This document shows, piece by piece, positions 11,402 through 54,920 of a stretch of DNA of 64,000 nucleotides. The DNA lies in NCBI GenBank assembly GCA_021404785.1, contig QWHH01000011.1, positions 24,789 to 88,788 on the forward strand. Direction: 5' to 3'. A program made the translations under genes and the position numbers. How positions within the stretch are numbered: position 1 is the first letter of the stretch; every line of letters begins with the position of its first letter. Origin of the DNA: Lysobacterales bacterium PRO7. GTDB taxonomy: Bacteria; Pseudomonadota; Gammaproteobacteria; Xanthomonadales; Rhodanobacteraceae. The notes under the pieces are model-generated. The model searched no databases and was not told the origin of the DNA. It was given only the letters and a program-made list of their open reading frames with translations.

Positions 11402-11462
11402 AGGCCGCGCATCCTACCTGCACGAGGCAAGGTAGACTAGGGCAAATCGCGTGGAGTCGCCG

Positions 11463-14400
11463 ATGTTCGCCCGAGCCATTGCCCTCATCGCCATTTGTCT
11501 TCCTCTGCTGGCTATTGACGCGCCGGCTGCAGAAGTCCGCCATACGTATATGGTGCGTCTGCAGGGCGAGCCACTGGTCGAGCATGTGCATGCGCGCGTC
11601 GTTGCGCAGGATCTTGCCGTCGTTGAAGGCGGTGAGAAGCCGGCGATGCGCCGCGAGTTGCGCTCTGCGCTGGCACTAGATTACCTGCAGCAGATCGACG
11701 CCCAGCGCACACGTGTACTCGATGCGGGTAGTGTGGAACTGGGCCGTGCGCTGGCGCCGCGGGCGGTCTATCGCTACGCAGGCAATGGCATGGCCTTGTC
11801 GCTGACCGATGCGGAAGCTGCACGTCTGGCGACGGTGCCGGGCGTCCTGGGCGTGCGCCGCGAGCGCATCTTGCGACCGATGACCGACGCGGGCCCGGAG
11901 TGGATCGGTGCCGACAAATTATGGAATGCCCAGGTCCCGGGCGTCGCCGCCACGAAGGGTGAAGGTGTAGTGATCGGCATCATCGACACCGGCATCAGCC
12001 CCAGCCATCCTTCGTTTGCCGCAACCGGTCCTGATGGTTATGCGATCGCGAATCCGCGCGGGCATTTCTACGGCTTGTGCGCGAGCGCGCAGGCGACCTG
12101 CAACAACAAGCTGATCGGCATCTACGATTTCACCGACGAGGGCACGAAGGGCATCGACAGCGTCGGCCACGGCACGCATGTCGCCGGCATCGCCGCGGGC
12201 AACGGCATGAACAACGCGCTTGCGGGCACGACTATTTCGCTTCCGCGTTTCGTATCGGGCGTGGCGCCGCATGCAAACATCATCATGTACAAGGCGTGCA
12301 AGTCCGGCAGTTCCGGCGGCACCTGTCCGGAATCTGCGCTCGTTGGCGCGCTGGACCAGGCCATCGCCGACAACGTGGACGTGATCAATTATTCGATCGG
12401 CGGCGATGCGCAGGACGCGTACCAGATGCTGGCCCAGGGCGGCAATGACGTCTCCGAAATGTTCAACGCGCGCGCGGCGGGTATCGTCGTTGTCGCCGCC
12501 GCGGGCAACGAGGGTCCGGGACCAAACTCCGTGAGCGAACCGGGGAATGCGCCGTGGGTGATCGCCGTGGCGAATGCGACGCACGACCGCCAGTTCGCCA
12601 ATTCGATCGGGAATTTCTCCGGCGCTGCGAATGCGCCATCGAACTTGACCGGCGCCGGTTACACGGCCGGATACGGGCCGGCGGAAATCGTCTATGCCGG
12701 CAATTACGGCAACGCCCTGTGCGGCACCGGGCCGAGCGATTTTCCGCCGACCGGCAAGAGCAATCCGTTTGCGCCCGGAACGTTCCACGGCCAGATCGTG
12801 ATCTGCGATCGCGGCATCTATGCGCGCGTCGAGAAAGGCTACAACGTGCTGCATGCCGGCGCCGGCGGCTATATCCTCGCCAATGCGCAAAGCGACGGCG
12901 AGTCCATCGTCAGCGACGATCATTACCTGCCGGCGGTGCATCTTGGCTACACCGAAGGCGCAGCGCTCAAGGCCTGGGTTGCGGCAGCCGGCAGCCATCA
13001 GGGCACGATCAGCGGCGTCACCGCCCTGTTGCAAGCCAGCCTCGGCGACATTCTCAATTCGAGCAGCTCGCGCGGACCGTACGGATTCGGTGGCGGAATA
13101 CTCAAGCCCGACATCACCGCGCCGGGAACGAACATCCTGTCGTCGGATTACCAATCCAACGGACTCGCATTCATGTCCGGCACGTCGATGGCGTCTCCGA
13201 ATGTCGCCGGCGCGGTCGCATTGCTTGTTGCCGCGCATCCGGCCTGGAGTCCGGCGCAAATCGAATCGGCCTTGCTCGGCACTGCGCTCGCCGGCAGTGT
13301 GCGCTTGCAGGATGGCGTGACGCCGGCCGCGCCGCTGGATGCCGGCGCAGGCCGCGTGCAACCCGCTACTGCCGTCAAGGCAGGACTTTATCTGCCGCTG
13401 AGCACCGCGGATTTTCGCGCGCAGAATCCCGCACAAGGCGGCGATCCATCCCGTCTCAATCGTCCCGGCATCGAGAGCGAGTCCTGCTTCGGCCAATGCA
13501 GTTTCGTGCGCACCGTCGCCGACATGTCCGGCGGCGGCACCTGGACGGCGAGCGTGCAGGGCGCAACCGCCAATGCGAAGATCACGGTAATGCCGTCGCA
13601 ATTCTCCCTCGCTTCGGGAGCGTCGCAACAGTTGAACATTGCCGTGGACGTCAGCGATCCGCACCTCACCGGAAACTGGTCGAACGCGCGCATCGTCCTG
13701 CACAAGACCGGCGGCGGACAGTCTGCCACCGACTTTGCTCTGTCGCTCGCGGTGTACGCATCGCCGGGCAATGCGCCGGCGTTTCGCGAGTTCACGACAG
13801 GCGAGCCATTTTTCGACACGACGCTAATCGTCTCAGGCCTCGCCGCGTTGCCGCACGCGCAGTTCGCACTGACGGGCCTGGTGCCGGCAACATCGAATTC
13901 GATGAGCCTCGGCGTCGACCCGAAGCCGAGCGATTTGTATACGACGTTCCCGGGAACCGGCAAGCAATTCGTGTTGTTCCCGGCTCTGACTCCATCCGGT
14001 TTTTCCTCGCCGCCGCCGGGAGGACCACAAGGCCGCGTGTTCATCGTCGAGATCGCGGCCTCTACGTCACCTTCGGCAACTTTGTATGCCGGCATCGACA
14101 GCAATGGCAGCGGCCAGCCGGATTCCGCCGAACAGGCGTGCGCGGCGCAGGGGGTTGGCGCGCGCTGCATCGTCGACTTGCGCGACCAACCGGCATCGAC
14201 GCAGGTTTGGGCGCTTGTGGACATTCCGTCCGGCAGCACTGGCGCTACTTATACCGTGACGCTGAGCAGCGGTTTGCCGTATACCTCGCCAGGATTCGTC
14301 AATCAGGGCAGCGTCATCCATTACGGTCTCGCCGGCCCCGGCCATGTAGCCAGCGGTGCGAATTTCCCGTTGCGGATGACGCTCGGTTCGGTCACCAATC

Positions 14401-15656
14401 CCCTGGCGCCCGGGCGCTACTACGGTGCGGTCATGATCGACGCGATCCCGATCAGCGGCAGCATGGCCGGACATGCCGGCGTGTTGCCGTTCGCGCTAAC
14501 GCGCGCGCCCGGCGGCGACGATGTCGTCGATCCGCTGACGCTGGGTGCGGATGCGACGCGCCAGTACTTCATCGCCGCGGGCGAGACCCTGCGCCACAGC
14601 TTCATCGATATTCCCGACACGCGCCAGATCACCATCCAGACCGGTCCTCCCGCCGCTTCCACTCTCGGTATGCCCCCGGCGGCAAACGTCTCGTTTTACC
14701 TGGCGCGCAGTGACATTCCGCCGGCGGCGCGCTCGGCGCAGGTCGCGGCGGCGCCACCCATCGGCGCCGCCGTCAAGCAATGGTCGATAGGCGGCACCGG
14801 GCCGGCGCAGGCGGTGATCTTCCAGACGGTCGGGCCGGGCCGGTGGTACATCGTCGCGACGAATGTCGGCAGCAGCAACGGTCAATTCAGTCTGTCCCTC
14901 GCCAACGATGCGGGCGGCACGGCCACGCCGCCCACGCCTGGCGCCTACTACAATCCCGAGCGTTCGGGTCACGGCATCTTCATCAGCCAGGCCGCCGGTG
15001 TGCAAGCGGTGTACTGGTATACATTCAATGAAGATGGCACGCCGACGTGGTACGCGGCGCAGGCGGATGCGCCGGCAAGTGGTGCGGTGGCCTGGACTGC
15101 ACCGCTGTTCAGCGACAATTGGGATGGCACACACGTCAATTCGTATTCCGTACTCGGCGACGTGATCCTCACGCCGATCGATGCGAACAATCTCGAGTTC
15201 TCGTGGCATCTGCACGGCGACGCCGGCAGCGAACGCTTCACGCGCATCGGTCCGGCGGCAGCGTGCGTCGATACCGGTTCGGTGCAGGCAAACCTCAACG
15301 GACAGTGGTATGCGCCGACGCAAAGCGGGTATGGCATGGACGTTCTCGCGCTGCCGGGCTTCCAGCAGGACACGTTCTATCTCTACGACGCGCTCGGCAT
15401 GCCGCGCTGGATCGCCGGCAGCACCAACTCGACAATGGGATCGAACACGCTGTCGATGTACCAGATCGGCGGATTCTGTCCGTCATGCGACTGGCTTGCG
15501 ACGCAGCCGCTGCAGGTAGGCACGATGACGACGAGTTTCACGAGTGGCACGCAGGGCACTTACGCGACGCAGATCCAACTCGTACCGCCACTGTCGGGAA
15601 ACTGGAACATCAACCAGCCGATCGTGCGGTTGACCGGGTCGCCAACGTGTCCGTGA
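11463..15656 (+). CDS. Secreted S8 subtilisin-like serine protease with PA domain and two C-terminal WYNP modules
   Basis: 1397 residues from the ATG at 11463, chosen because GGAG lies 6 nt upstream; an in-frame GTG at 11451 is the alternative. Order: signal peptide (1-23), inhibitor I9-like propeptide, S8 catalytic domain with Asp175 (GIIDTGIS), His236 (GHGTHVAG), oxyanion Asn349 (AAGNEG) and Ser575 (SGTSMASPN). A PA domain is inserted before the Ser. Beta-rich regions follow, then two WYNP-type modules (DNA about 14935-15290 and 15295-15655) beginning AYYNPERSGHG and GQWYAPTQSGYG. An extracellular protease is expected. A TAGACT at 11433 may be its -10 box. Confidence 0.92.
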   Translation: MFARAIALIAICLPLLAIDAPAAEVRHTYMVRLQGEPLVEHVHARVVAQDLAVVEGGEKPAMRRELRSALALDYLQQIDAQRTRVLDAGSVELGRALAPRAVYRYAGNGMALSLTDAEAARLATVPGVLGVRRERILRPMTDAGPEWIGADKLWNAQVPGVAATKGEGVVIGIIDTGISPSHPSFAATGPDGYAIANPRGHFYGLCASAQATCNNKLIGIYDFTDEGTKGIDSVGHGTHVAGIAAGNGMNNALAGTTISLPRFVSGVAPHANIIMYKACKSGSSGGTCPESALVGALDQAIADNVDVINYSIGGDAQDAYQMLAQGGNDVSEMFNARAAGIVVVAAAGNEGPGPNSVSEPGNAPWVIAVANATHDRQFANSIGNFSGAANAPSNLTGAGYTAGYGPAEIVYAGNYGNALCGTGPSDFPPTGKSNPFAPGTFHGQIVICDRGIYARVEKGYNVLHAGAGGYILANAQSDGESIVSDDHYLPAVHLGYTEGAALKAWVAAAGSHQGTISGVTALLQASLGDILNSSSSRGPYGFGGGILKPDITAPGTNILSSDYQSNGLAFMSGTSMASPNVAGAVALLVAAHPAWSPAQIESALLGTALAGSVRLQDGVTPAAPLDAGAGRVQPATAVKAGLYLPLSTADFRAQNPAQGGDPSRLNRPGIESESCFGQCSFVRTVADMSGGGTWTASVQGATANAKITVMPSQFSLASGASQQLNIAVDVSDPHLTGNWSNARIVLHKTGGGQSATDFALSLAVYASPGNAPAFREFTTGEPFFDTTLIVSGLAALPHAQFALTGLVPATSNSMSLGVDPKPSDLYTTFPGTGKQFVLFPALTPSGFSSPPPGGPQGRVFIVEIAASTSPSATLYAGIDSNGSGQPDSAEQACAAQGVGARCIVDLRDQPASTQVWALVDIPSGSTGATYTVTLSSGLPYTSPGFVNQGSVIHYGLAGPGHVASGANFPLRMTLGSVTNPLAPGRYYGAVMIDAIPISGSMAGHAGVLPFALTRAPGGDDVVDPLTLGADATRQYFIAAGETLRHSFIDIPDTRQITIQTGPPAASTLGMPPAANVSFYLARSDIPPAARSAQVAAAPPIGAAVKQWSIGGTGPAQAVIFQTVGPGRWYIVATNVGSSNGQFSLSLANDAGGTATPPTPGAYYNPERSGHGIFISQAAGVQAVYWYTFNEDGTPTWYAAQADAPASGAVAWTAPLFSDNWDGTHVNSYSVLGDVILTPIDANNLEFSWHLHGDAGSERFTRIGPAAACVDTGSVQANLNGQWYAPTQSGYGMDVLALPGFQQDTFYLYDALGMPRWIAGSTNSTMGSNTLSMYQIGGFCPSCDWLATQPLQVGTMTTSFTSGTQGTYATQIQLVPPLSGNWNINQPIVRLTGSPTCP

Positions 15657-15756: not shown

Positions 15757-16860
15757 ATGAGTAAGAAGACCATGCTGGCCTTGAGCTTTGCGGTCTTGTT
15801 CGGGGCGGGATGGGGGGCGGCATACGCCCAAGTCCAAACGCAGTCGCCGGTCTTCGGCACTGTGCTTGAGTATCCGACTACTGGCTGCGGCGGGGCCGTT
15901 CTGCAAGTGCCTCTGTCCGGGCAGCAGCTTCTTCCGAAAACCGGTCTTGTGCCCTCTACGTCAGTGTCGTTCTACGGCCAAGCGGCAGCATTGCACGTCA
16001 AGTGGCTAACCACACTTCAGTGCAAGCACACCGGCATCACCCATGAGCTGGTGCCTGCTGCCGGCGCAGTGAACACTGCGAATATCAGCAACGATTATAT
16101 TTCCGCAAATTGGTCCGGATACCAGATTGCCAACACCGCGCAATTTGCGCAATCGGGTTGGACCATCCCTACCGTAGTTAAACCCAATCCAGGTTACGGA
16201 ACAGGGGCAGGATTGAATGGCTACTATTCATCGACGTGGACGGGTATAGGCGGTGGGGTCAATGCCGGCTCCGGGCCGTTGATCCAATCCGGGTCAACCC
16301 AGGATTTGGTTGCCGGTGCCACCACTTACTATTTTTGGTACGAAGTTGTCGGTGGTCCTACCGATACGGGGGGCGAAGTCCAGTTGTGTTCGCAAGGAAG
16401 TGGATGTCTTGCCGCAAATCCTGGGGATTTGGCTGGAAGCGCTTCGCTGTGGATACCGGATCCGAATCCCAATAATCCGGGGATGGGCCAGGTTACCCTT
16501 GGGGTATGTGATTTCACCGTCGGCGGTCCCTGTGCGAACCTCATTATTGATTCTGACAGGTACACTACGCCGACACCGGGCAATACTACCGAATGGATAG
16601 TAGAAGCCCCAAGCTATAACGGAAATATCCTTGCATTGGCGGATTTTGATTCCGCGACATTCGTGAACGCGTGCTGGTCGCCGGCGTATAACAACGGTAC
16701 GGGTAGCTGCTACACGATAGCGCAGGGCAGCTATCCGGGCGCAATATCCATAGAAAACACCGTGTTCGGCATTTACCAGTATTTGGCATCTCCTGATTCG
16801 CTGAATGCTTCGGGCAATGGGTTTACCGATTATTACATTCAGCCGGAAAAAGGAAACTGA
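15757..16860 (+). CDS. Secreted G1-family (eqolisin-like) glutamic endopeptidase
   Basis: 367 residues; ATG at 15757 behind AAAGGAAGG. Signal peptide ends near WGAAYA. The fold is recognised from family motifs: ANWSGYQ, SGWTIPTV, STWTGIGGG, YYFWYEVV and TTEWIVEAPS. The catalytic pair would be Gln177 (PLIQSGS) and a Glu in EWIVE (279 or 283). G1 peptidases (PF01828) are best known from fungi and act at acid pH; bacterial homologues exist but few are characterised. The gene is clearly more A/T-rich than its 5' neighbour, suggesting transfer. It lies 24 bp before the LRR gene. Confidence 0.78.
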   Translation: MSKKTMLALSFAVLFGAGWGAAYAQVQTQSPVFGTVLEYPTTGCGGAVLQVPLSGQQLLPKTGLVPSTSVSFYGQAAALHVKWLTTLQCKHTGITHELVPAAGAVNTANISNDYISANWSGYQIANTAQFAQSGWTIPTVVKPNPGYGTGAGLNGYYSSTWTGIGGGVNAGSGPLIQSGSTQDLVAGATTYYFWYEVVGGPTDTGGEVQLCSQGSGCLAANPGDLAGSASLWIPDPNPNNPGMGQVTLGVCDFTVGGPCANLIIDSDRYTTPTPGNTTEWIVEAPSYNGNILALADFDSATFVNACWSPAYNNGTGSCYTIAQGSYPGAISIENTVFGIYQYLASPDSLNASGNGFTDYYIQPEKGN

Positions 16861-16884: not shown

Positions 16885-19566
16885 ATGACGATTTCCGAAG
16901 AACCGCGTGTTGCAGTTTCAGACACATTTGCACGTTGCCTGTCGATACTCGGCTTATTGGCTTGCTGGCTGGCATTGAGCTATTTCGGAATGGAGGGTGC
17001 GCAAGCGGCAATTCCATCCACAGAACGTGCGGTATTGCTGAATCTGTACGGTTACACCGATGGCATCCACTGGGATCCACAGTACCAAGGTGGCTGGAAC
17101 GGCCCGCCCGGTACCGAATGCGCTTGGTACGGAATCACTTGCGATGCCACGAGTTCCACAGTAATAGGAATCAACTTGGCCGGGGTAGGAATGAATGGTG
17201 CATTGCCTTCATTGTCCGCACTGACGAATCTGCGAACGTTCGATATTCATCAAACTGCTACCGGCGGAATCGGCGCTTACAATTCGTTGTACGGTCCGAT
17301 TCCGCCTTTGAGCGGGTTGACACACCTTCAAACATTTATTGCCAACAACACGTATTTCGACGGCAGTATTCCGTCATTGGCCGGATTGGCCGAGCTGAAG
17401 GATTTTGAGGTATATACCTATGGTTTCAGCAGCCTTGGCGGGTCGATTCCATCCCTGAGTGGGTTGACCAATCTTGCTCGGTTCGATGTTCATGGCGACG
17501 GTCTCACCGGGCCCATTCCATCGCTCACGGGTTTGTACAACCTTGCCTATTTCCGAGTTGGTGGGAACCACCTGACCGGATCGATTCCGGATCTAAGCGG
17601 GTTGGATGCCTTGAACTATTTTGATGTTAGTGCCAATTACCTAACTGGCAACGTGCCTAATTTGATTGATTTGCCTAATCTCCAGCATTTTCTTGCCTAT
17701 GGAAATTTGTTGGATGGAACCTTCGGAGAGTGGTCCGATCTTCCGCAATTGTTGGAGTTCAATGCCGAATATACCCGATTGACAGGCGGTCTTCCTGCAT
17801 TAGTGCAGGCGCCAAACATTCAACGATTTGTGGCGGGGCCGAGTGGCCTTACCGGCAATATCCCCGATATTTCGCAGTTGACGAACCTTGTGGTGTTTGG
17901 CGTGGCCGGCAATCAATTGACTGGCCCACCACCGTCGCCGCCCGCGTCGTTGGTGAATGCCCGCGTCAATGCGACCGGCGGTGGCGCCTTGTGTCCGAAC
18001 CTTCTGACGCCAGCCAGCGATCCACCATCAGCCATCGATACCGATTGGAATACGGCAACCGGAACGACGCCATGGTCACTGAAATGCGCGCCTGATCCGA
18101 AATGGCCGTCGTTTGTTCAGGCTTCTTCGAGCCGCAATCCATCGGTTTTCGGGCAGGCCGTGACATTCACTGTTCTGGTGAACGGCATGAATCCGACCGG
18201 CACGGTGACGTTCACGTCGCTGCCGGAGGTTCCCGGTAATGCAGGTCAGACGACGACTTTGTGCGACGCCGTGCCGCTGAACGATCAGATTGCGACCTGC
18301 ACTGTCGACAACTTCGACGCGGGCACTTCAAATGTGATCGTCGCCAGCTACTCAGGCGACGCGAACAACGCGCCATCAAATAATGTCATCGGTACGATTT
18401 TCGGGAACGTGAGCATATCCACCGTCGACCAGTTGGTGTACCAGTCCGTTACGGAAAGCGCCACGGTGAACCCTGTACAGACGGGACAGCCTGTCGATCT
18501 GACGGCATCGATCGCGGGCGGCAAGCCCGGCGATACGGTAACCTTTTACGATGGCCGGGCCACGCTTTGCGCGAATGTCCCGGTCGTTGTCGAACAGGAT
18601 CATCAGGTGGTGCGTTGCACGACGCAGTTTTCGACGACGGGGCCGCATCCGCTCATGGTTGGATATGTCAACACAGGCGTTGGCGGTGCGTCCGATCCCC
18701 TGATCATGAATGTCGTGTCTGCGGCTGCCTTCGACAGCGACCAGTTCGCGCTGACGGGTTCGTGGTACAACCCGCCGACATCGGGGCAGGGGTTGGAGAT
18801 CGAGGTTTATCCCGATCTATCCGGCACGGGCACCGGCTTCCTGTTCGGCGGATGGTTTACGAACGACGCGCAAGGAAATCCGCAGTGGTACACCCTGCAA
18901 GGAAGTCTTGCGGCGAGTCATGGGGCATCGTATTCGTTGGCCATTGCCGAATCCACGGGTGGCAATTTCAACGCGCCGCCGATAACCCAGGCCGTCGCTG
19001 ATGGCACGGCAACGCTCACCTTCTACGATTGCTCCCACGCGGCGTTGGCTTACAAGTTCAACGATGGCCGCAATGGCACGATTCCGTTCGTGCGTCTGAC
19101 GCCGGCCACGGGATGCAGTTCGTCGGTGCCAGCCGGGAATATCGCGCCGCCGCCAAACTACGCAGACGTGCTGCACTCGGGAGCATGGTACGATCCGGCG
19201 ACATCCGGACAGGGATTGATGATCGACATCGTACCGTCGATCAACACGTTTTTTGCGGCGTGGTACACCTACGCGCCGCAGAGCGAAGCGCAGACTGGCG
19301 CAGCTTCGCAGCGCTGGTTCACCTTGCAGGACAACGCCTACACACCCGGCGCACTGAACTTGAACAATGTACCGATCATTGCGACCTCGGGCGGCGTGTT
19401 CAATCAGCCGTCGAATGTGGCGACTACTCAAGTTGGCACGGCGAATATCGCATTTACGTCATGTATGACGATGACGCTGACCTACAATTTCACGCAAGGC
19501 GAATTCAGTGGGCAGAGCGGGACGATCCACGAAAGAGCGATCGTGCCGCTGGCGGGATGTCAGTGA
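16885..19566 (+). CDS. Secreted plant-type leucine-rich-repeat protein with Ig-like domains and two WYNP modules
   Basis: 893 residues. An N-terminal hydrophobic export segment (LSILGLLACWLALSYF) is followed by an LRRNT-like cap (ERAVLLNLYGYTDG, ECAWYGITCD). About ten LRRs of the GxIP type come next (residues about 95-350, for example LTGSIPDLSGLDALNYFDVS), closed by a cap LCPN and NTATGTTPWSLKC. Two Ig-like repeats (about 405-610) precede two WYNP modules (GSWYNPPTSGQG at DNA 18758 and GAWYDPATSGQG at about 19181). No enzyme motif is seen; extracellular binding is the likely role. The LRR half is A/T-richer than the Ig/WYNP half. Confidence 0.85.
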   Translation: MTISEEPRVAVSDTFARCLSILGLLACWLALSYFGMEGAQAAIPSTERAVLLNLYGYTDGIHWDPQYQGGWNGPPGTECAWYGITCDATSSTVIGINLAGVGMNGALPSLSALTNLRTFDIHQTATGGIGAYNSLYGPIPPLSGLTHLQTFIANNTYFDGSIPSLAGLAELKDFEVYTYGFSSLGGSIPSLSGLTNLARFDVHGDGLTGPIPSLTGLYNLAYFRVGGNHLTGSIPDLSGLDALNYFDVSANYLTGNVPNLIDLPNLQHFLAYGNLLDGTFGEWSDLPQLLEFNAEYTRLTGGLPALVQAPNIQRFVAGPSGLTGNIPDISQLTNLVVFGVAGNQLTGPPPSPPASLVNARVNATGGGALCPNLLTPASDPPSAIDTDWNTATGTTPWSLKCAPDPKWPSFVQASSSRNPSVFGQAVTFTVLVNGMNPTGTVTFTSLPEVPGNAGQTTTLCDAVPLNDQIATCTVDNFDAGTSNVIVASYSGDANNAPSNNVIGTIFGNVSISTVDQLVYQSVTESATVNPVQTGQPVDLTASIAGGKPGDTVTFYDGRATLCANVPVVVEQDHQVVRCTTQFSTTGPHPLMVGYVNTGVGGASDPLIMNVVSAAAFDSDQFALTGSWYNPPTSGQGLEIEVYPDLSGTGTGFLFGGWFTNDAQGNPQWYTLQGSLAASHGASYSLAIAESTGGNFNAPPITQAVADGTATLTFYDCSHAALAYKFNDGRNGTIPFVRLTPATGCSSSVPAGNIAPPPNYADVLHSGAWYDPATSGQGLMIDIVPSINTFFAAWYTYAPQSEAQTGAASQRWFTLQDNAYTPGALNLNNVPIIATSGGVFNQPSNVATTQVGTANIAFTSCMTMTLTYNFTQGEFSGQSGTIHERAIVPLAGCQ

Positions 19567-19573
19567 ATCGAAT

Positions 19574-20965
19574 TCATTGGGCCAGTGGCGGCAATCGCTC
19601 ATCGACCAGCCGGTCGGCGAGCGTCAGATCGACCTGATCGAGCGCTGTCTTGCCGGTGGTGAGTTCGCGCAGGATGCCGGACTGGATTTCGCCGCGCTCG
19701 AATGCGACCGAGTAGGGCAGGCGCGAAAACGTGACCATCCAGTAGCGCGGTACGAAGCGGCCCGGATGGCGGGCGGCGAGTTGGCGTTCAAGCGCGCGCA
19801 TCAGCAGGAAGTGTGCGTCGGCGACGGAGTCACGCATCTCGATGTAGTTTTCCAGCGCCATCGCTGCGATCGCGTCCGCGTTCGGCTTGCGTCGATGCTG
19901 GAATTGCGCGAACACGGTTTCGAAATCGCTGCTTGAATCTTGCAGCAGATCGGCGAGTTCCACCGCGTCTTCGAATCCACAGTTCATGCCCTGGCCGTGG
20001 AACGGCACGATGGCGTGCGCGGCGTCGCCGATCAGCAGGGCGCGACCAGCCAGGTGCCAGCGATCCAGGTACAGCGTGCCGAGGATGCCGGTCGGGTTGG
20101 TGTCGAAGTCTTTTTCCAGATCGGGGATCAGCGGCAGGGCGTCGCCAAAGTCGCGCGCGAACAGCGCATGCGCGTCGGCGCCGCTGCGCACGCTGTCAAA
20201 GCCGGGTTTACCGGAGTTTGGCATGAACAGGGTGACGGTGAAGCTGCCCTGCGCATTCGGCAGCGCGATGCACATGTAGTTGCCGCGCGGCCAGATATGC
20301 AGGGCGTTGGGTTCCATCGCGAACTTGCCCCCTTCACCGCTGCGCGGAGCTTCTCCCGCGGGCGGGGGAAGCGAATCAAGGGCCGGAATTTCAAGTTCCT
20401 TGTAGCCGTGTTCGAGCGGCTCGAAACGCTCGCGCAGGTCCGAATGCGTGCCCATCGCCGCGCGCAACGCCGAACCCGCACCATCCGCGCCGATGATCGT
20501 TTTCGCTTCGTGCGTGCGGATCGATCCAGCGTCGTCGCCGAAATGCAATGTCGACGAATCCCAATCGACCGAATCGAGGCGTTGGCCGAAATGAATGCGC
20601 GCGCTGGCCTGTTCGGCGGCATCGAGCAGGGCCATGTTGAGCGCGCCGCGGCTCACCGACCAGATCACCTCGGAATCGTCGCGGCCGTAGCGCAGCAGTT
20701 CGGTATGGCCGTCCGCATGGTGCACCATGCGCCCGCGCATCATCACCGCGATCGGTTCGATGCGCTTTTGCAATCCGGCCACGCGCAGGCCGTGCCAGCC
20801 GCGTTCGGCCAGGGCGAGGTTGATCGAACGCCCGCCCTGGAAACCGTGGACGCGCGGATCGGGCCGGCGTTCGAACACGGTGACTGCAAATCCGCGTTGC
20901 GCAAGCAGGGTGGCGGCGAGCGCGCCGACGAGGCCGGCGCCGATCATGGTAATTTCGGGTTTCAT
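19574..20965 (-). CDS. kmo: Kynurenine 3-monooxygenase (FAD)
   Basis: 463 residues from ATG at 20965. Rossmann motif GAGLVGALAATLLAQRG, then FQGGRSINLALAERG, the FAD motif ALLIGDAAHAIVPFHGQGMN, NALHIWPRG and GYKELEIP, all typical of KMO. It hydroxylates kynurenine to 3-hydroxykynurenine with NADPH and O2. No other kynurenine-pathway gene is in the window. A GC-rich palindromic stretch adds a peptide near SLPPPAGEAPRSGEGG between GYKELEIP and FAMEPNALHIWP, where relatives have a short loop. It is divergent from the S10 peptidase gene. Confidence 0.9.
   Translation of the reverse strand: MKPEITMIGAGLVGALAATLLAQRGFAVTVFERRPDPRVHGFQGGRSINLALAERGWHGLRVAGLQKRIEPIAVMMRGRMVHHADGHTELLRYGRDDSEVIWSVSRGALNMALLDAAEQASARIHFGQRLDSVDWDSSTLHFGDDAGSIRTHEAKTIIGADGAGSALRAAMGTHSDLRERFEPLEHGYKELEIPALDSLPPPAGEAPRSGEGGKFAMEPNALHIWPRGNYMCIALPNAQGSFTVTLFMPNSGKPGFDSVRSGADAHALFARDFGDALPLIPDLEKDFDTNPTGILGTLYLDRWHLAGRALLIGDAAHAIVPFHGQGMNCGFEDAVELADLLQDSSSDFETVFAQFQHRRKPNADAIAAMALENYIEMRDSVADAHFLLMRALERQLAARHPGRFVPRYWMVTFSRLPYSVAFERGEIQSGILRELTTGKTALDQVDLTLADRLVDERLPPLAQ
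20325..20385. repeat. GC-rich palindrome-containing insert inside kmo
   Basis: The stretch contains nested inverted repeats (on the minus strand GGAG/CTCC and CCGC/GCGG stems, with flanking CCCCC and GGGGG). It reads in frame through kmo as a Pro/Gly/Glu-rich loop. It resembles the C-rich palindromic elements usually found between genes in this group. Confidence 0.5.
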
Positions 20966-21061
20966 CGGCAAAGTGTAGCAGTCGCGCTTCCCGTGACTTT
21001 CGGGGCATTGGCCGCAACCGGATTCGCCACTAGGATGGCGGTTCATTCGAGGGGAATACCG

Positions 21062-22666
21062 ATGCGCAAAATTGTCCTGAGTTCGATGGTGGCGTTGGGT
21101 TGCCTGGCACTTGCACCGGCATGGTCGGCCGACAAGGCGGCAGCGGACAAGCACGAAGACGCATCCGTCGCGTCGGCGGTCAAGGCACAGAAGGTCGAGA
21201 CCTCCGGCAGCGTCAGCGTCGAAGGCAAGAAGCTCGACTACAAGGCCATCGCCGGCACCATTCTTCTCACCGGCAAGGACGAGGACAAGGATGATCCCAC
21301 CGCGAACATGTTCTACGTCGCCTATTTCAAGAGCGGTGTGGATAGCGTCAGGCGCCCCGTGACCTTTCTCTACAACGGCGGCCCGGGCTCGTCCACGGTG
21401 TGGCTGCACATGGGCGCGTTCGGCCCCAAGCGCGTGGTCACGCTGGACGACCAGCACACGCCGGCGGCGCCGTACCAGTTGATCGACAACAACTACAGTC
21501 TGCTCGACGCGTCCGACCTGGTCTTCATCGACGCGCCCGGTACCGGTTTTTCGCGCCTGCTGGTCAACGAAAAGGACAAGGCCAAGCGCGCTGCGGCGAT
21601 GAAGGAACGCGGCAAGGAATTCTACGGCGTCGACCAGGACGCGCAGGCTTTCGCCCAGTTCATCACCAAGTTCCTGACTGAATACGGGCGCTGGAATTCG
21701 CCCAAATACCTGTTTGGCGAAAGCTACGGCACCACGCGGTCCGCAGTGCTGGCGAACGTGCTGTCGACCGAGCAGGCCGTGGATTTGAACGGCGTGATGC
21801 TGCTGTCGCAGATCCTCTCGTTCGCCAACGATATCGACGCGCCGCAGTACAACCCGGGCGTGGACCAGCCGTACGCGCTGGCGCTGCCGACCTATGCGGC
21901 GACCGCGTGGTACCACAAGAAACTGCCGAACCAGCCGGCGCAGCTCGAACCGTTCCTGAAAGAGGTCGAACAGTTTGCGATGACCGACTATACGGTCGCG
22001 CTCGCGGCTGGCTCCACGCTCGATCCCGAACGACGCAAGGCTATCATCGCCAAGCTGCACGAATACACCGGCCTGCCGGAGTCCTACATCGACAAGGCCG
22101 ACCTGCGCGTGTTCGGCGGCGAGTTCGAGAAGACTTTGCAGGATTCCGCCGACCTCACCACCGGCCGCCTCGACACGCGCTTCTCCGGCCCGAGCATGGA
22201 CCCGCTGGAACAGCAGTCGGCCTACGATCCGCAGTCCGCCGCGATCAGCTCGGCCTATGTGTCGATGTTCAACGATTACGCGCGGCGCACGCTCAAGTTC
22301 GGCGAAGGCATGACGTTCCACGAGTTCGGCAATGTCTATCCGTGGGACTGGAAACATGCCGCGCCCGGCCTGCCGCCCGGATTCTTTCCGTCATCGACGA
22401 ACGTGATGTCGGATCTTGCGGTGGCAATGAAATACAACCCGCAACTGCATGTGCTGCTGGCCGGCGGTTATTACGATTTGGCGACGCCGTATTTCGCTGC
22501 CGTGTATGAAATGCGCCATCTGCCGATTCCGGCGAAGTTGCAGTCCAACATCGAGTACGCGTTCTTCCCGTCCGGGCACATGGTCTACGCGCACGAGGAA
22601 TCGCTGAAGAAATTGCACGATGTGACAGCGGCTTTCATAGGCCGCACGGATAATCTGGGCAAATAG
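21062..22666 (+). CDS. S10-family serine carboxypeptidase-like peptidase
   Basis: 534 residues; ATG at 21062 behind GAGGGG. Signal peptide ends near PAWSA. The alpha/beta-hydrolase peptidase motifs are FLYNGGPGSST (oxyanion region), GESYGTTR with Ser221, the Asp in GGYYDLATPY and the His in FPSGHMVY. S10 enzymes remove C-terminal residues from peptides; the signal peptide places it in the periplasm or outside. It converges with the TerB-like gene, seven bases apart. Confidence 0.92.
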   Translation: MRKIVLSSMVALGCLALAPAWSADKAAADKHEDASVASAVKAQKVETSGSVSVEGKKLDYKAIAGTILLTGKDEDKDDPTANMFYVAYFKSGVDSVRRPVTFLYNGGPGSSTVWLHMGAFGPKRVVTLDDQHTPAAPYQLIDNNYSLLDASDLVFIDAPGTGFSRLLVNEKDKAKRAAAMKERGKEFYGVDQDAQAFAQFITKFLTEYGRWNSPKYLFGESYGTTRSAVLANVLSTEQAVDLNGVMLLSQILSFANDIDAPQYNPGVDQPYALALPTYAATAWYHKKLPNQPAQLEPFLKEVEQFAMTDYTVALAAGSTLDPERRKAIIAKLHEYTGLPESYIDKADLRVFGGEFEKTLQDSADLTTGRLDTRFSGPSMDPLEQQSAYDPQSAAISSAYVSMFNDYARRTLKFGEGMTFHEFGNVYPWDWKHAAPGLPPGFFPSSTNVMSDLAVAMKYNPQLHVLLAGGYYDLATPYFAAVYEMRHLPIPAKLQSNIEYAFFPSGHMVYAHEESLKKLHDVTAAFIGRTDNLGK

Positions 22667-53935: not shown

Positions 53936-54095
53936 TTGCGCCAGACTTGCGACTGACGGTGACGTTTCCCCAGCACGCTGGTCTGTTCATTGAACGCGCG
54001 CGCTATCCGTAGTAGGGTCGGGCTTGGGGCGGTGTTGACTGCGTTGCTGGCAGGAGGCACCTGTAACACATGGTTGTTTGATCTGGAGGAAGATC

Positions 54096-54920
54096 ATGTC
54101 CATTTTCCGCTATGCCACGGCGTTGTCCGTGTTCCTCGTGAATTACTGCATCGCGCAGACATTCACCTTCGATCCGCCCAATCCCCAAGCGGGACAGAAA
54201 TTCAGCATCAATGCCGTGTGGCCCAACAGTGGACGTTCGGTAAAGACACAGGGCTATGTTTTTGCCCCGAACTTGCATAGCTATCCAGATCCATCCGATG
54301 GCGGCAGGATCAATGTGTGGTTTGTGCAGGATGGCAATGGTTTTGCAACGCCGCCGCCGGGGTTGGTCATTCGCGCAGCACAGGATATTGATGGGTTGCC
54401 CGCGGGCACTTACACGGTCAGCGTCAACTGGATTCCGGATCCGGATCCGCTCGTCAACACTGCAGCAAATTCACCGCAGACGTTCCAGCTCGTGGTCGGC
54501 GGAAATTCGACGGGAGAACCACCGGAGTCATTTGTGATTGGCAACGGCATCACCGGCAACTGGTACAACCCGGACCAGAGCGGGCACGGGTTTTCCCTTG
54601 AAGTGTTGCCGGGCGGCACGCTGCTTGCCGAATGGTTCGTGTTCTCGCCCACGGGCAGCCGCGACTGGATCGCGGCAAGCGGGCCGATCAACGGCAATAC
54701 GGCCACGCTGAATGCGTTTCGTACGGACGGTTCCGGCGGCCAGTTTCCGCCGCACTTCAATGCGGCGGCGGTGCAACAACAGTCGTGGGGAATAATCACG
54801 TTCGCGTTCAGCGATTGCAACAACGGTACGGTCGCCTGGCAATCGACACAATCCGGTTATGCACCGGGCTCGCTGCCGATCACGCGCTTGACCACGCCGA
54901 ACGGGCTGCATTGCCCGTAA
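54096..54920 (+). CDS. Secreted protein with a C-terminal WYNP module
   Basis: 274 residues from ATG at 54096 behind GGAGGAAG. Signal peptide, an Ig/beta-sandwich-like N-terminal half (FDPPNPQAGQKFSINAVWPN, LPAGTYTVSVNWIPDPD), then the module ITGNWYNPDQSGHGFSLEVLPG with AEWFVFSPTG and RDWIAASG. It is the simplest of the three WYNP proteins in the window: one copy, no enzyme domain. Function unknown. It ends in a Cys-Pro, as does the S8 protease. Confidence 0.75.
   Translation: MSIFRYATALSVFLVNYCIAQTFTFDPPNPQAGQKFSINAVWPNSGRSVKTQGYVFAPNLHSYPDPSDGGRINVWFVQDGNGFATPPPGLVIRAAQDIDGLPAGTYTVSVNWIPDPDPLVNTAANSPQTFQLVVGGNSTGEPPESFVIGNGITGNWYNPDQSGHGFSLEVLPGGTLLAEWFVFSPTGSRDWIAASGPINGNTATLNAFRTDGSGGQFPPHFNAAAVQQQSWGIITFAFSDCNNGTVAWQSTQSGYAPGSLPITRLTTPNGLHCP

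Follow-up and report, generated by a model that had tools for sequence, protein, structure and literature searches.

A recurrent, unnamed exported domain with a predicted calycin-type barrel in Lysobacterales bacterium PRO7

Why should three exported proteins with different partner domains, encoded within 64,000 nucleotides of Lysobacterales bacterium PRO7 (contig QWHH01000011.1, positions 24,789 to 88,788 of the forward strand; hereafter the window), carry the same WY(N/D)PxxSGxG motif? A first-pass annotation of the letters had reported the motif twice in an S8 protease, twice in a leucine-rich repeat (LRR) protein and once in a small protein near 54 kb, as part of a module without a named function. 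The analysis reported here supports one shared, unnamed, exported module on varied partners with a predicted common fold. Sequence comparison shows that a single domain type, about 115 residues long, occurs five times in the window, spread over three exported proteins. The domain belongs to a real, large and unnamed exported family, is predicted to be a calycin-layout barrel, and probably acts as an accessory binding module.

Copies of the module and database searches

The three proteins and their modules are as follows (bits refer to the independent profile described below).
11451..15656, + strand: subtilase (Peptidase_S8 plus PA domain; Pfam PF00082, 1.4e-50; PF02225, 1.8e-11) with two C-terminal modules
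14940..15296, + strand: S8 protease, predicted barrel module A (119 aa, diverged), 45.9 bits: GAYYNPERSGHG
15297..15653, + strand: S8 protease, predicted barrel module B (119 aa), 37.8 bits: GQWYAPTQSGYG
16885..19566, + strand: LRR and bacterial Ig-like (Big_3_5) protein (Pfam PF16640, 1.5e-15; PF12799, 4.1e-9) with two C-terminal modules
18751..19122, + strand: LRR protein, predicted barrel module A, 64.7 bits: GSWYNPPTSGQG
19171..19563, + strand: LRR protein, predicted barrel module B, 67.0 bits: GAWYDPATSGQG
54078..54920, + strand: small exported protein (hydrophobic leader, by eye) with one C-terminal module
54546..54917, + strand: predicted barrel module of the 54-kb protein, 140.9 bits: GNWYNPDQSGHG

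A pattern fitted to the five copies gave 5 matches in the six-frame translation of the window, all at these places. Circularity was avoided with an independent profile built from 118 domains that come from other genomes, some of them of the same genus. This profile found all five copies in the six frames, the sole further stretch scoring -1.4 bits, while the best of 13,860 residue-shuffled control frames reached 9.9 bits. A chance origin of the copies was therefore rejected, and the recurrence described at first pass held for all three proteins. In addition, S8 copies A/B, each aligned with four same-genus orthologues, matched the family profile over 101/109 columns (hhalign probability 98.5 for copy A and 98.7 for copy B).

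The motif covers just the first strand and the following loop of the longer module. Its proposed start needed correction since S8 copy A opens with GAYY, not GxWY, and S8 copy B has A instead of N/D. Likewise, the P-x-W element proposed further on occurred in three of the five copies, with SQRW in LRR copy B and SRDW in the 54-kb copy. The consensus of 65 modules was sG.WYnP..SGqGl.lev.P....lfa.WfTYd..G.qrW..gqG...gg...l......GG.F..n...v....vGtatltF.dCn.gt..y....g.fg.SGt.pl.RLt....C.

Searches of 28 diverse members against Pfam (at E 0.1) and NCBIfam gave nothing convincing or consistent; the weak matches were Metallophos_C in two members and CBM_56, PKD, DUF6645, DUF1481 and MiiA in one each. 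The 54-kb protein had no Pfam or NCBIfam match, and its N-terminal region of about 125 residues was without a Pfam match. The best hit of the 28-member profile in a PDB sequence search had an E value of 0.83, which was not convincing, and the 54-kb module as query found no match there. PHROGs returned a single weak match (0.0061) that fell outside the module. Membership of a known family was rejected on the Pfam, NCBIfam and PDB sequence searches, which gave no consistent match. Thus no existing family in Pfam or NCBIfam covered the copies, and the earlier statement that the module has no named function agreed with this result. The exact motif strings were not found in open-licence literature and the titles listed by topic searches there included no description, although we do not claim that the module is undescribed in print.

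Predicted fold and conserved residues

The module is predicted to be an eight-stranded antiparallel up-and-down beta-barrel with the calycin layout. AlphaFold2 gave eight strands for the 54-kb module with a predicted local distance difference test score (pLDDT) of 95.5 and a predicted template modelling score of 0.87, and S8 copies A and B modelled as a pair showed eight strands in each (pair pLDDT 77). By these predictions, the fold is shared between the 54-kb copy and both S8 copies, where the first-pass annotation had allowed that the copies might share none. The calycin signature is described as a barrel with a helical cap, a Trp in the first strand and an Arg or Lys in the last strand (PMC2954199). 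As to the cap, a short helix that precedes strand 1 in calycins, residues 4-6 were helical in the 54-kb model and no helix was present in the S8 pair model. The first-strand Trp was found in 150 of 166 modules, the remaining 16 having F or Y (Y in S8 copy A), and a last-strand R or K was also found in 150 of the 166, LRR copy B being without the Arg. No covariation was detected between these two positions among the 166 modules.

Because 79 loci had been fetched by the pattern W[YF][DN]PxQSG[HQ], which inflates loop conservation, conservation is quoted from 72 modules found by profile, 12 of which also match that pattern. The loop showed N/D in 85%, P in 85%, S in 69% and GxG in 99% of the modules, and the W/F/Y positions of strands 1, 3 and 4 were aromatic in 94-100%. 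The F of a 'GGxF' turn and the last-strand Arg (88%) were conserved as well. Strands 5-8 showed the hydrophobic/polar alternation that a barrel wall should have, and strand 3 with the start of strand 4 was hydrophobic on both sides. From the conserved loop, the aromatics and the two-sided hydrophobic strands we infer a conserved binding face or rim.

The Cys of the 'DC' turn and the terminal Cys were both present in 113 modules, the first only in 0, the last only in 31 and neither in 22. The 'DC'-turn Cys therefore never occurred without the terminal Cys (Fisher 3e-13, a value inflated by the relatedness of the rows), and a disulfide bridge, often present, would be the simple reading of this coupling. 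Such coupled cysteines suggest robustness and, along with very mixed partners, would suit an inert domain that has no specific ligand and just stabilises its protein or acts as a spacer; the loop glycines and prolines may then serve the turn alone. However, the conservation of GxG, P and N/D in the loop exceeds the apparent need of a spacer, and this reading appears improbable.

The strand 1, 3 and 4 aromatics, which simple alternation does not place all inside, also bear on an oligomerisation domain, in which barrels of neighbouring chains would pack together and bring the enzymes into multimers. The predicted avidin-like barrel would fit such a role, and the avidin-like domain of sea-urchin fibropellin, recorded as packing in this way, offers a precedent that is cited in PMC8033661. 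On the other hand, the tandem barrels of many proteins would tend to pair within the chain, and oligomerisation is considered unlikely.

Spread, architecture and shuffled pairs

The genome of Lysobacterales bacterium PRO7 itself had 15 module matches at E 1e-5 or better; a separate count of its loci gave 15 copies in ten open reading frames (ORFs), which may differ from the profile matches. In a first sample searched at E 0.01, the module was found in all 17 same-genus genomes (the own one included), in 1 of the 8 family members from outside the genus and in 14 of the 16 genomes from elsewhere in the order, with a highest count of 71 profile matches in one genome. An order-wide sample at E 1e-5 covered 151 genomes from 64 genera; 110 of these genomes, representing 44 genera, had the module, but phylum-wide and class-wide draws showed it in just 5 of 398 and 6 of 369 genomes, respectively, the own genome being included in both. 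Copy numbers from these genome searches are lower bounds because a limited number of candidates was scored in most genomes (11-12 in the phylum and class draws, 29 in the order sample). Carriers included Tahibacter, Aquimonas, Chiayiivirga, Pseudomarimonas, Marinicella and Pseudoteredinibacter, among others. Given the highest count in a single genome and the number of carriers in the order, many hundreds of exported proteins would have a part that is at present unlabelled, and the profile together with one structure would annotate all of these carriers at once. One module groups with those of an uncultured beta proteobacterium metagenome-assembled genome (MAG) and lies on a contig titled Bordetella parapertussis (MAG; L128), a name that is doubtful.

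A search of plasmids with one module (L074) as query gave no match, and 14 pattern matches in viral contigs yielded 0 confirmed copies. The 54-kb module as query matched one of 50,697 phage records, Dolichospermum phage Dfl-JY45, whose module was 31% identical to the query. In this phage (L153, PP438435.1, 124337-126267), two adjacent exported-looking proteins carry the module and a sister type of domain, respectively. The sister domain, with the patterns 'GxWWNPxExGRGxNIE' or 'GxWxxxxELNGxPGRG', was found in the phage, in two genomes of the class from one other family (G234, G262) and in one member of the family (G192). Its five-row profile matched the module profile with a probability of 98.0 and an E value of 1.8e-13 over 98 columns, and the phage sister copy matched S8 copy A of the window weakly (E 6.8e-4, residues 4-50). 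Unlike the module, the sister domain has the loop WWNPxExGRG or ELNGxPGRG and lies close to the N-terminal end of its host proteins, which are about 290-330 residues long; two such proteins tested against Pfam gave no match. Another presumed sister pattern, WWNPxESGWG, was searched as a DNA pattern and was found in 0 of 299 genomes; a sister type was instead detected next to the phage module.

Architecture was examined in complete ORFs, meaning stop-to-stop frames within the fetched stretch. Among 106 distinct complete ORFs, 74 have the module C-terminally, with at most 30 residues after it (one copy in 55, a pair in 19). In another 24 it lies towards the N-terminal end (one copy in 12, a pair in 12), the remaining 8 have it at other positions, and none had more than two modules. 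The spacing within pairs was 10-33 residues and fell at 16-20 in 20 of 31 pairs. A signal peptide was assigned to 86 of 115 complete ORFs by a crude rule, which missed the 54-kb protein among others.

These positions bear on whether the module is an export or surface-sorting signal, with an outer-membrane machine recognising a C-terminal barrel, as happens with the barrels of Slam (type XI) substrates. The N-terminal and other placements ruled out a strictly C-terminal sorting tag, and the sorting module suggested at first pass cannot be kept in that form. PF04575, the Slam family, was not found in the own genome, and 31 of the 32 genomes with modules lacked it; it occurred in 4 of 41 genomes, three of which had no module, and by this distribution Slam-type secretion was rejected as an unlikely general explanation. 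GspD was equally present in genomes without modules. It gave a match in 41 of 41 genomes (39 above the curated cut-off) and is therefore not informative, type II export being available but not diagnostic. Overall, a sorting signal is improbable. A higher-scoring GspD type was apparently commoner in module-bearing genomes by eye, was not used here and may just follow ancestry; three same-genus genomes that are near-complete and rich in modules (G002, G008, G015) lacked it.

The partners were highly diverse. The modules of the window stand on a subtilase, an LRR/Ig-like protein and an unmatched small protein, bearing out the different partner domains noted earlier, and many more were found in relatives. 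The 80 non-redundant ORFs had 49 Pfam partner families; among the first 25 of these, Copper-bind was seen 7 times, SGL 4 times and FG-GAP_3, FG-GAP, M28 and PD40 3 times each, while S8, GSDH, dioxygenase, cytochrome c7 and others were seen twice and DUF1800, LRR_4 and others once. Sequences used were 80 of 115 complete ORFs in A4 (the remainder being redundant), 92 of 104 module references plus five from the window in A5, and 28 of 29 pairs plus two from the window in A6.

A tree of 180 modules over 118 columns left many forks unresolved. The LRR pair of the window fell inside a supported group of 30 rows (95/94). Here, a clade of ten second copies (98/88) included LRR copy B, and a further clade (97/78, just under the star threshold) joined ten first copies to a row of which the partner copy was masked. 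LRR copy A grouped with the first copies of other pairs. Partners in this group were the LRR protein of the window, a beta-propeller (L031) and a subtilase (L033), and its N-terminal pairs stood on proteins with Dioxygenase_C (PF00775; L022, L037). In a second group, first and second copies again separated into sets of nine (98/88 and 98/87, respectively), which were shared by N- and C-terminal pairs; DUF1800 lay downstream of the pair in the two N-terminal cases checked (L119, L121), and the one C-terminal pair checked (L126) followed an MtrC/F-like multihaem cytochrome region. Since related ordered pairs stand on different partners, the pair behaves as a shuffled cassette that seems to move as one piece from partner to partner and from one protein end to the other. 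The S8 pair of the window had long branches and lay outside both groups.

Two closely similar paralogues of the own genome (L010 and L011, contigs C5 and C6) have an N-terminal module pair followed by about 370 further residues, and L010 had no Pfam match at E 0.01. In the window, a Peptidase_A4 gene (15757-16857, + strand) lies between the S8 and LRR genes, and a carboxypeptidase-like ORF was noted by eye within 19940-22666; with the S8 gene, these resemble a cluster for extracellular protein breakdown.

Proposed role and comparison with known families

The explanation that we favour as probable is that this unnamed exported barrel acts as an accessory binding module. The proteins bearing it would be sent to the periplasm or beyond, and the catalytic or scaffold domain of each would have a single barrel or an ordered pair attached to it. 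The barrel would then hold this domain to a partner outside the cytoplasm, which may be envelope, matrix or substrate, and contact would be made through the rim loop (N/D)PxxSGxG and the aromatics of strands 1, 3 and 4. Because the partner domains are so varied, and the module occurs at either end, singly or paired, attachment to a common extracytoplasmic partner would be the most economical reading. A profile and one structure would also make it testable which extracellular partner is common to proteases, propellers, cupredoxins and cytochromes in these bacteria.

Avidin and streptavidin (PF01382) share the avidin-type barrel layout with the predicted module. Streptavidin also has G19-x-W21-Y22-N23-xxx-S27, compared with G-x-W-Y-N/D-P-x-x-S in the module, and its N23 and S27 contact biotin, as do W79 and D128. 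Hence a small-molecule calyx has to be weighed, in which, as in avidins and lipocalins, the end of the barrel would bind a ligand resembling a cofactor, and the module might serve as a scavenger. The equal spacing of W-Y-N-xxx-S and W-Y-N/D-P-x-x-S agrees with this, N/D and S co-occurred in 43 of the 72 modules not chosen by the motif pattern, and the streptavidin rows of VIA-align begin at offset 11, which superposes both motifs, but most avidin rows there begin two residues off that register. Moreover, no clear counterpart of W79 or D128 was seen by eye, such diverse partners do not point to a single small ligand, and the module compared with five proteobacterial avidins gave an hhalign probability of 0.4, that is, no profile similarity. 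Direct avidin membership was rejected on this sequence result; no Pfam Avidin match was obtained for the 28 members at E 0.1, and the avidin family model had no match in the own genome. The module further differs from avidin in its Cys pair, tandem pairs and multidomain exported hosts. A calyx is judged distinctly unlikely, and it would be a long shot that, in this large and so far unnamed calycin family, the avidin-type ligand site at the W-Y-N/D-P-x-x-S loop now serves as a portable adaptor, so that the many exported enzymes to which bacteria of the order attach it would all dock, outside the cell, to the same small ligand or to a surface bearing it.

The accessory binding module that we prefer also finds its relatives in layout among the calycins (lipocalins, nitrophorins and fatty-acid-binding proteins), with which it shares the predicted barrel, the first-strand Trp and the last-strand Arg/Lys, and from which it differs in its use as a shuffled accessory domain. 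The 54-kb module model lacks the C-terminal lipocalin helix, and Lipocalin (PF00061) was not matched by any of the 28 members at E 0.1. The barrel of the quinohemoprotein amine dehydrogenase alpha subunit (1jju_A, 168-274) was 12-13% identical to the module; to our knowledge, this domain is confined to a single enzyme family and does not take part in shuffling. In its way of working, the module would resemble carbohydrate-binding modules, which are likewise small, aromatic-rich and shuffled among exported proteins. However, the sole match to a profile of that kind was CBM_56 in one of the 28 members (E 0.012), and the listed partners of the barrel module are mostly not glycosidases. Overall, the family is new to the libraries searched and new as a shuffled bacterial accessory use of the barrel, while the fold itself is not new.
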